Both the position numbers and the translations under genes were made by a program. The notes under the pieces are model-generated. The model had not been told where the DNA came from. It was given only the letters and a program-made list of their open reading frames with translations, and did not search any database. A stretch of DNA of 64,000 nucleotides from Candidatus Thiodiazotropha endoloripes (GTDB lineage: Bacteria > Pseudomonadota > Gammaproteobacteria > Chromatiales > Chromatiaceae): the NCBI RefSeq assembly GCF_001708965.1, contig NZ_LVJW01000003.1, forward strand, positions 372,001 to 436,000, written 5' to 3'. The number at the start of each line of letters is the position of its first letter. Position 1 is the first letter of the stretch. Below, piece by piece: positions 61,630 through 63,838 of the stretch.

Positions 61630-62180
61630 ATGTCAAACTATCGTAGAGCCTCTCTTTCAGGCGGCACCTACTTCTTCACAGTTGTTACCTACAATCGTAA
61701 ACCACTTTTTAATAGTGAACTGGCGCGGCGTGTACTTCATCGAGCGATCTTAGATGTTCGTGAGAGAAACTATTTCAGAATTGAAGCACTTTGTCTGTTG
61801 CCAGACCACCTCCCTACAATTTGGAGGCTACCTGAAAATGATAGTGCGTATCACCGACGCTGGAATCATATAAAAGGAATCTTCACAAAACAGTTCAGAG
61901 GTTTTTCACTGTATGATGAAAATACCTCAGGCTCCCTTTTAAAAAGGGGAAAGGACTATTTGGCAAAGACGCTACTGGGAGCATCTGATCTGGGATGAGC
62001 ATGATTACAGCAATCATGTGGATTATATCCACTACAATCCTGTCAAACATGGGTTGGTTGAGCAAGTGGTTGATTGGCCCTGGTCGAGCTTCCACAAATT
62101 TGTCAGAGCTGGAATCTATCCTGCGGATTGGAGTGGTTCATCTCCTGCAAAAACCAATCTTGTTACAGGGGGAGAGTAAT
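61630..62180 (+). pseudogene. REP-associated tyrosine transposase (RayT), frameshifted and HUH-mutated
   Basis: The first frame gives SNYRRASLSGGTYFFTVVTY and continues to about residue 106 (RWNHIKGIFTKQFRGF), the RayT/Y1-transposase N-terminal half. After the run TTTTAAAAAGGGGAAAGG (61938-61955) the protein continues in the +1 frame: TIWQRRYWEHLIWDEHDYSN, HVDYIHYNPVKHG (with the catalytic Tyr region), then WPWSSFHKFVRAG to a stop at 62180. The HUH metal motif of these enzymes, expected as H-x-H after PD, reads PDHLPTIW, so its second histidine is proline. Frameshift and lost metal ligand together say the gene is dead, unless the frameshift were programmed, which the mutated motif makes unlikely. 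Confidence 0.88.
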
Positions 62181-63328: not shown

Positions 63329-63405
63329 CGGGGTATAGCGCAGTCTGGTAGCGCGCCTGCTTTGGGAGCAGGATGTCGGGAGTTCGAATCTCTCTACCCC
63401 GACCA
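63329..63405 (+). tRNA. tRNA-Pro (anticodon TGG)
   Basis: 77-nt cloverleaf. Acceptor CGGGGTA (63329-63335) pairs with TACCCCG (63395-63401), anticodon stem CTGC / GCAG with loop TTTGGGA giving anticodon TGG, T-loop TTCGAATC, and encoded CCA at 63403-63405. Confidence 0.97.
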
Positions 63406-63413
63406 ATTTTTCT

Positions 63414-63715
63414 GCGCCCGTAGCTCATCTGGATAGAGCATCGGCCTTTAAGTGCGCACATCAATGTGCCAAATAGGAGCCTTTATGGGGAAAAAAGAAC
63501 CCATAAAGTGGATCGCACTGTATCGGGGAAACCTTAACAGGTAGTGCTGATGGCAATCCCGAGGAAACCCGATAGGGGATCCGTAGAGACTATACGTGCG
63601 ACGCCTGAGACGGTGAAGAGATAGTCCAGACCACAAACCCCGATTGGGGGCGTCGAAAGGCGTAGTTGGTAAGCTAAGCCGAGGGTAGCAGGTTCGAATC
63701 CTGCCGGGCGTGCCA
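63414..63715 (+). tRNA. tRNA-Arg (anticodon TCT) interrupted by a group I intron
   Basis: The exons are 63414-63448 and 63674-63715. Joined, they give a 77-nt tRNA: acceptor GCGCCCG with CGGGCGT (G-U at the first pair), anticodon stem TCGGC / GCCGA and loop CTTCTAA, so the anticodon is TCT. T-arm GCAGGTTCGAATCCTGC and 3' CCA are encoded. The joined sequence closely resembles E. coli argU-type tRNA-Arg(UCU). The insertion lies after U34, the first anticodon base, so the tRNA cannot function unless the intron is spliced out. Confidence 0.95.
63449..63673 (+). ncRNA. Group I self-splicing intron (IC3-like), 225 nt
   Basis: Core elements are visible: P1 pairs the exon end GGCCTT with internal guide GGAGCC (63476-63481) and a U-G at the splice site; P2 CTTTATGGG / CCCATAAAG (63481-63508); P3 TCGCAC (63513-63518) with GTGCGA (63596-63601); P4 TCGGG (63523-63527) with CCCGA (63558-63562); P7 GACTAT (63588-63593) with ATAGTC (63621-63626), in the consensus GTAGAGACTATACG and GAAGAGATAGTCCAG; P9 CCCCGATTGGGG. 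The last intron base is G (63673), as required for omega-G. No homing endonuclease is encoded. The R/S segments resemble the Azoarcus tRNA-Ile intron closely. Confidence 0.93.
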
Positions 63716-63761: not shown

Positions 63762-63838
63762 GGTGGACGTAGCTCAGTTGGTAGAGCTCCGGATTGTGAT
63801 TCCGGCGGTCGTGGGTTCGAGACCCATCGTCCACCCCA
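63762..63838 (+). tRNA. tRNA-His (anticodon GTG)
   Basis: Acceptor GTGGACG (63763-63769) pairs with CGTCCAC (63828-63834); the G at 63762 is the extra G(-1) typical of tRNA-His and faces C73 (63835). Anticodon loop TTGTGAT gives GTG; T-arm GTGGGTTCGAGACCCAT; encoded CCA at 63836-63838. Confidence 0.97.

Follow-up and report, generated by a model that had tools for sequence, protein, structure and literature searches.

Introduction

The small tRNA introns of Azoarcus tRNA-Ile(CAU) and Agrobacterium tRNA-Arg(CCU) are group I introns of subgroup IC3, which is marked by the absence of P5abc, a compact structure and a tRNA host. Passages in the literature also place group I introns in the tRNA-Ile2 of Acidovorax and Burkholderia (PMC8450103) and describe I-Ssp6803I as the PD-(D/E)XK nuclease of the cyanobacterial tRNA-fMet intron (PMC1995217). 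In Beggiatoaceae, putative group I introns in tRNA-Arg-TCT are mentioned in a passage of PMC4853749 for BOGUAY (credited there to MacGregor 2013a) and for Thiomargarita Bud S10. With respect to phages, a passage of a 2014 review states that all group I introns then known were located in protein genes despite the many phage tRNAs (PMC3984707).

Here, a 64,000-nt stretch of the Candidatus Thiodiazotropha endoloripes genome (the window) was analyzed, in which a 225-nt group I intron (63449-63673) splits the tRNA-Arg(UCU) gene at 63414-63715 after U34 (Table 1). The same tRNA is interrupted by the putative group I introns of the Beggiatoaceae (PMC4853749). The window intron is of a familiar kind, namely the small group I introns of bacterial tRNAs, and has a divergent core. 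Its site is little described but widespread, and the family to which it belongs is large and apparently little-noticed: no report of the U34 site in tRNA-Arg(UCU), of its nuclease, or of phage tRNA-Arg introns was recognized in the open-licence literature, and earlier reports are possible. Taken as a whole, the locus is very probably best explained by group I splicing that yields tRNA-Arg(UCU), with the intron being the nuclease-less form of a homing element.

The Interrupted tRNA-Arg(UCU) Gene

When joined, the exons form a 77-nt molecule that ARAGORN identifies as tRNA-Arg(tct). On the unspliced gene, with introns allowed, the same program reports a tRNA-Arg over nt 1-302 that is interrupted from nt 36 by a 225-nt intron, giving the same boundaries, while no tRNA is called at the window locus without the intron option. 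A default tRNA search thus skips the interrupted gene, and some tRNA-Arg(UCU) genes listed as missing may be bookkeeping errors. Since the anticodon loop (C32 U33 U34 and C35 U36 A37 A38) reads CUU/CUAA, the cut falls after U34, within the anticodon. A U closes the 5′ exon and a G, at 63673, closes the intron. The initial annotation, which had read the exons as a full tRNA-Arg(UCU) once 225 nt are removed, the insertion after U34 as splitting the anticodon, and the intron as ending in G, was correct on all of these points. Between cysS and folD, the window also holds a 122-aa frame (61630-61998) that has no Pfam match and by eye resembles a truncated REP-associated transposase.

Table 1. Features of the tRNA-Arg(UCU) locus and its predicted intron structure (window coordinates).
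Feature	Position	Strand	Remarks
tRNA-Pro(UGG), upstream neighbor	63329..63405	+	
5′ exon, tRNA-Arg(UCU)	63414..63448	+	35 nt, ends C32 U33 U34; sequence, ARAGORN
Group I intron, 225 nt	63449..63673	+	Rfam, written structure, ARAGORN
Guide UAGGAG	63474..63479	+	GAG faces C32U33U34 (P1, U.G at splice site); UAG faces C35U36A37 (P10)
P2 hairpin	63481..63508	+	63481-63489 with 63500-63508; 8/9 pairs with double changes
P3 5′ strand	63513..63518	+	Pairs with 63596-63601
P4 and P5	63523..63562	+	P4, 63523-63527 with 63558-63562; P5 between
P6 with short L6 (about 63570-63576)	63563..63582	+	L6 is the endonuclease gene site in relatives
P7, P3 3′ strand, P8	63588..63626	+	P7, 63588-63592 with 63622-63626; P3, 63596-63601; P8, 63602-63605 with 63612-63615
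P9.0	63630..63670	+	63630-63633 with 63667-63670; encloses two hairpins, the second (63651-63662) closed by GAAA
Terminal intron guanosine (omega-G)	63673..63673	+	Sequence
3′ exon, tRNA-Arg(UCU)	63674..63715	+	42 nt, C35 to encoded CCA; sequence, ARAGORN
tRNA-His(GUG), downstream neighbor	63763..63838	+	

Folded Structure of the Intron

The intron was compared with the Rfam group I model RF00028 by cmscan, a check proposed in the initial annotation. The match is significant (E 3.8e-8), but its 37.2 bits fall below the gathering score of 50, which is a curation threshold and not a defining trait of group I introns; an RF00028 search with stricter filters did not recover the window genome. In folding of the gene (about 303 nt), none of 100 shuffles equaled the native sequence (z -4.1). 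A P1-P10 structure of 55 pairs was written from the window sequence and then counted on 30 homologues. Across these rows, 98.4% of 1650 cells are paired, and in 23 of the 55 pairs both partners have changed. On each of five measures, the observed value exceeds that of all 500 shuffles, and pairing falls to 31-39% when the partners are slid out of register. The pattern that gathered most of the homologues partly fixes P7 3′, P9.0 and the 3′ end, and support for the structure therefore comes from the double changes in P2, P3, P4, P5 and P8 and in the P9 hairpins. The P4-P6 and P3-P8 domains are present with the P7 pseudoknot, and double changes occur in P3, P4, P5 and P8. P7 is invariant among the 30 rows, and a single double change was noted by eye among the U36 relatives described below. 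The initial annotation, which had traced P1, P2, P3, P4, P7 and P9, was right that pairings from P1 to P9 can be followed and that the intron belongs to group I.

The suggested IC3 type stands in part. The intron is without P5abc, compact and hosted by a tRNA, with a short P5 and a GAAA loop on the last hairpin; on the other hand, its score lies below the Rfam cut-off and its core forms a clade apart from the standard-core tRNA introns (100/100; 99.9/100 with viral introns added). Of the Azoarcus and Agrobacterium type, 22 Ile and four Arg(CCU) relatives were solved. Like the window intron, these lie in the anticodon loop and carry a triplet guide directly before P2. They sit after U36, however (two further Ile introns sit after U33), whereas the window intron sits after U34, and their J3/4 differs from that of the window by eye. 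The 22 tRNA-Ile(CAU) introns solved all lie after U36, the position that the initial annotation gave for Azoarcus as different from that of the window intron, and all 22 score above the Rfam cut-off whereas the window intron scores below it.

Going by its structure, the intron should self-splice. The alternative that a host protein is needed, with the group I intron not self-splicing alone, is distinctly unlikely. It draws on the divergent core, on a P1 of three pairs and on the existence of protein-assisted group I introns, which a passage of PMC3984707 describes. It is countered by the compactness of the intron and by its GAAA-capped last hairpin, whose loop is invariant in 30/30 rows. Such a loop is an element of protein-free tRNA introns.

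Guide Sequence and Proposed Splicing Pathway

The GAG of the guide directly precedes P2. The U34.G splice-site pair is present in 30/30 rows, and the P10 pairs are present in 30 (first), 25 (second) and 18 (third) rows, for 81.1% of cells paired overall. P1 consists of three invariant pairs in the U34 set, so covariation there is no test of P1. The relationship between guide and exon was followed across sites: 194 introns in nine groups and at eight sites were examined, P2 was found in 192, and 176 of these carry, at the P2 edge, the triplet expected from the exon end. Other exon triplets match in a mean of 35.8, and some of these matches are overlap, as GGAG also contains GGA. The guide had been read in the initial annotation as matching GGCCTT, and a P1 near that reading and near the MFE (GGCC plus UU with AGGAGCC) was considered. 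This was rejected because the triplet directly before P2 tracks the exon end from site to site; UAGGAG takes its place.

In the proposed pathway, the gene would be transcribed as an interrupted pre-tRNA, and the intron would fold into a group I ribozyme. A guanosine bound in P7 would cut after U34, which faces a guide G. With P1 keeping it beside P10, the released end of U34 would then attack after the terminal G, joining U34 to C35. The product would be tRNA-Arg(UCU), apparently the sole reader of AGA in the cell.

Distribution Among Bacteria

An intron at the same place is found in 19/21 same-genus genomes, with lengths of 225 to 298 nt and 99% identity for one of them (G016). The other two (G008 and G012) give two spliced-tRNA matches each, with 83% for one each among the matches listed, and may lack the locus in their assemblies. 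In eight fetched relatives, chosen for a full-length match to the spliced tRNA, tRNA-Arg(UCU) is uninterrupted and adjoins tRNA-Pro in all eight, with tRNA-His also adjoining in seven. The comparison with related genomes proposed earlier thus gave an intron carried by most congeners and lacking in these chosen relatives. The chance that the interruption arose through an error of sequencing or assembly is negligible: no supporting point was found, and the idea is contradicted by independent assemblies that hold the same insertion, from the congeners as well as from records of several phyla.

Genome contigs were scanned with a pattern for the 3′ half of the intron, yielding 113 stretches, 106 of which rebuild a tRNA-Arg(UCU) with an intron after U34 (in two of these the 3′ exon runs off the contig). 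Seven were left out because they have no 5′ exon: L127, without the 5′ half, and six at stretch or contig edges (L039, L047, L079, L089, L107, L112). By record title, with bins taken as titled, the hosts are mainly Gammaproteobacteria; the others include a set of Bacillota, three Desulfobulbia (L054, L095, L126) and two Alphaproteobacteria (L061, L106). L112, titled as a Halobacteria archaeon, holds the 3′ half of an intron with a nuclease and is perhaps mis-binned. The 130 rebuilt introns (112 distinct) are 202-343 or 621-694 nt long, with ten of the 130 loci at 383-506. UCU, which the initial annotation had called an uncommon host, is therefore a common one at this same site. Its further proposal of a horizontally acquired or retargeted intron is supported as regards horizontal spread across phyla and phages but not for the window copy, for which a recent event does not fit, because the intron is in nearly all congeners.

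Decoding of AGA

At least 43 tRNA matches were found in the genome (12-contig assembly; 150 of 179 candidates scored). Besides the interrupted gene, the Arg tRNAs typed by ARAGORN are ACG, CCG and CCU only. A second tRNA-Arg(UCU), named in the initial annotation as what would make this copy a pseudogene, was found neither among the typed genome tRNAs nor by a search with the spliced tRNA. The best own-genome match of the latter is 83% among the matches listed, which points to the absence of an intact near-identical copy. AGA codons are used in window genes, including seven in cysS, and by wobble rules their decoding apparently depends on the interrupted tRNA, which would make its splicing essential. 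The interrupted tRNA-Arg(UCU) is probably not a pseudogene. That the locus is a degenerate, non-splicing remnant, with AGA read by another tRNA, is highly improbable; while the sub-threshold RF00028 score and an L6 that keeps no nuclease gene could be taken in this sense, such a remnant is hard to reconcile with the lack of a second copy in the searches above, exons identical in G016, G007 and G010, an intron core conserved across phyla, and AGA codons in use.

The L6 Endonuclease and Its Proposed Loss

Among introns longer than 600 nt, 32 of 37 distinct sequences have an open L6 frame of at least 130 aa with an HHTK motif. The L6 protein of one of these (L024) matches Pfam PDDEXK_5 (PF11645; E 3.8e-39) and, weakly, PDB 2OST (E 0.004), which we take to be I-Ssp6803I. 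The likeness to that enzyme thus consists of a nuclease within a tRNA intron and this weak match, while the tRNA host is another and the window copy has no nuclease. Among the 72 shorter introns whose L6 spans at least 12 nt, a remnant of the nuclease is recognizable in 22, six of them titled Ca. Thiodiazotropha. In the window intron, L6 is only a few nt long, with neither frame nor remnant. A PF11645 search of the window genome gave no match, and its positive control gave no signal either.

Very probably, the window intron is a reduced copy, lacking the endonuclease, of a mobile element that targets the anticodon loop of tRNA-Arg(UCU) genes by homing and whose full copies carry the PD-(D/E)XK nuclease in L6. 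After insertion the nuclease would no longer be required and would decay, while the ribozyme would be retained because the tRNA is needed. The stages of such a cycle stand side by side as a natural experiment, with the nuclease free in phages, fused in the intron, decaying and gone.

Sister Introns and Phylogeny

Introns of the same clade sit after U36 of tRNA-Arg(UCU) in G147 and its relatives, which make up nine of the 143 genomes, each belonging to family f33. Family f33 may be Beggiatoaceae, and its sister introns differ from the window intron, which lies after U34, in position and in guide. Their guide GGA matches U34C35U36 in 9/9 by eye and 8/9 by script. A natural experiment is thereby offered in which guides act two nucleotides apart in one anticodon loop (GAG after U34, GGA after U36).

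Trees were built on reduced sets of 116, 97 and 60 rows, and the all-class tree is weakly resolved inside clades. The clade of U34 and U36 introns is supported at 100/100. The U36 introns are nested among the U34 introns in the tree, but a main U34 group without them is also acceptable (AU 0.438), and derivation of the U36 from the U34 introns was for this reason not retained. A group of all U34 introns that includes Desulfobulbia and excludes U36 is rejected (AU 0.034). The Desulfobulbia introns were considered as a second, independent colonization; this was set aside as unsupported, since a single origin of all tRNA-Arg(UCU) introns is acceptable (AU 0.631).

The 14 solved tRNA-Leu(UAA) introns resemble the window intron in their position after U34 and their exon end CUU, and 12 of them have the GAG guide by script, but they are in a different tRNA and a different core clade. 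An alternative origin is that the U34 introns jumped into tRNA-Arg(UCU) from tRNA-Leu(UAA), given that both have a CUU exon end and a GAG guide, and not from another Arg intron. A grouping of the Leu introns with the main clade is acceptable (AU 0.268), but the main clade stands apart from them at 100/100 and the single group of all tRNA-Arg(UCU) introns is acceptable as well, and a jump from Leu is considered somewhat unlikely.

Hosts were assigned with a script, as calling by ARAGORN only was too permissive. Of 67 RF00028 matches, 64 were run through the script, with 44 giving a tRNA and 20 none; L028 was solved from another locus. Further hosts were seen in the course of this work. In Gammaproteobacteria, tRNA-Thr(UGU) has group I introns after U36 with the guide GCA (L147, L148, L151, L155), and L159 has an intron in tRNA-Lys(CUU) with the guide GAG; the script also allowed another reading for four of these Thr and Lys introns. 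To our knowledge, neither tRNA is listed as a group I intron host. Genome G147 has three split tRNAs (L029, L172, L216): Arg(UCU) after U36, Leu(UAA) after U34 and Ile2(CAU) after U33. Plasmid searches found no nuclease; six records matched other tRNA introns, each only over a 3′ portion, and two of these records were solved. One of the two is a Leu(UAA) split after U34 on a Bradyrhizobium plasmid typed as conjugative (L265, 461-664), and the other is a Thr(UGU) split after U36 on a Tritonibacter replicon (L266, 412-663).

Phage Introns and Free Nucleases

The phage link was found through junction patterns and a cyanophage nuclease; a first viral core pattern and a viral scan with the bacterial nuclease each gave no viral match. 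The closest phage relatives of the nuclease are in Synechococcus phage Sf-FR1 (57.8%) and Acinetobacter phage Herod (40.4%), where they are free genes just 3′ of an uninterrupted tRNA-Arg(UCU). Used as the query of a viral scan, the Sf-FR1 protein recovered 17 loci with 11 distinct nuclease stretches, and in all 17 an intact tRNA-Arg(UCU) lies 56-67 nt upstream of the free nuclease, with the loop CTTCTAA in 16 and CTTCTAC in one. As these loci are close relatives of the query, the pattern is partly due to common descent; Herod and L277 (39%) are more independent cases. Five of 15 more distant phage records (33% or less) were viewed: one nuclease is near tRNA-Met(CAT), one near tRNA-Ser, one in a tRNA array and one upstream of tRNA-Ala, while one record is without an annotated tRNA. 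Several phage matches adjoin capsid, helicase or terminase genes and not tRNAs. A clade supported at 96/97 unites the bacterial intron nucleases with the free nucleases of cyanophages and excludes Herod, L277 and a Kuttervirus protein; support for the bacterial intron nucleases as a monophyletic group is weak (68.4/75).

Introns themselves are also present in viral records. Two junction patterns gave 50 viral stretches, 49 of which are tRNA-Arg(UCU) split after U34 by script. L294, which the script did not solve, was left out, as was L300, which looks chromosomal and whose 633-nt intron resembles that of Pullulanibacillus (L093) by eye. The remaining 48 viral contigs hold 26 distinct introns at the U34 site. 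An HNH-type frame lies 44-54 nt downstream of the split tRNA in 29 of the 48 (three of these being 35-residue matches), and a PD-(D/E)XK frame lies downstream in one, L277. To check viral origin, ten proteins from eight of the 48 contigs were compared with PHROGs, and eight of the ten matched, including a terminase on the 6.4-kb stretch of L318; the proteins from L275 and L287 had no match. In the huge-phage genome LR756508, tRNA-Lys(UUU) and, one tRNA-Glu further on, tRNA-Arg(UCU) are both split after U34. The two ribozyme types are separated at 99.9/100 in the 60-row tree, and each of them includes viral introns. These phage tRNA introns run against the statement in the cited passage of the 2014 review (PMC3984707).

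A joint reading of these observations is that the anticodon loop of tRNA-Arg(UCU) serves as a shared homing site, with introns and tRNA-specific endonucleases passing between phages and bacteria and the window intron being an end-stage relic. We regard the chances of this reading as evenly balanced. If it is true, two ribozyme lineages share the U34 position in phages and bacteria; phages keep a free nuclease 3′ of the tRNA, of the PD-(D/E)XK type beside an intact tRNA and of the HNH type beside an intron-bearing one; and bacteria hold the fused form of intron and nuclease. The surprising part would be a single tRNA anticodon loop as a homing site in both bacteria and phages.

Other structured elements were observed in phage records. 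The record of Microcoleus phage My-WqHQDG annotates a tRNA-Arg of 286 nt, which by script is an Arg(CCU) split after U36. In phage genomes of 735 kb (L345, 679-883) and 595 kb (L346, 659-1358), tRNA-Leu(UAA) is split after U34, with an insert of 700 nt in the latter. In huge phage LR756508, a HEARO RNA is located near the pair of split tRNAs (L262, 3757-3981), and a GOLLD RNA lies beside the tRNA array of phage Herod (L264, 62-430).
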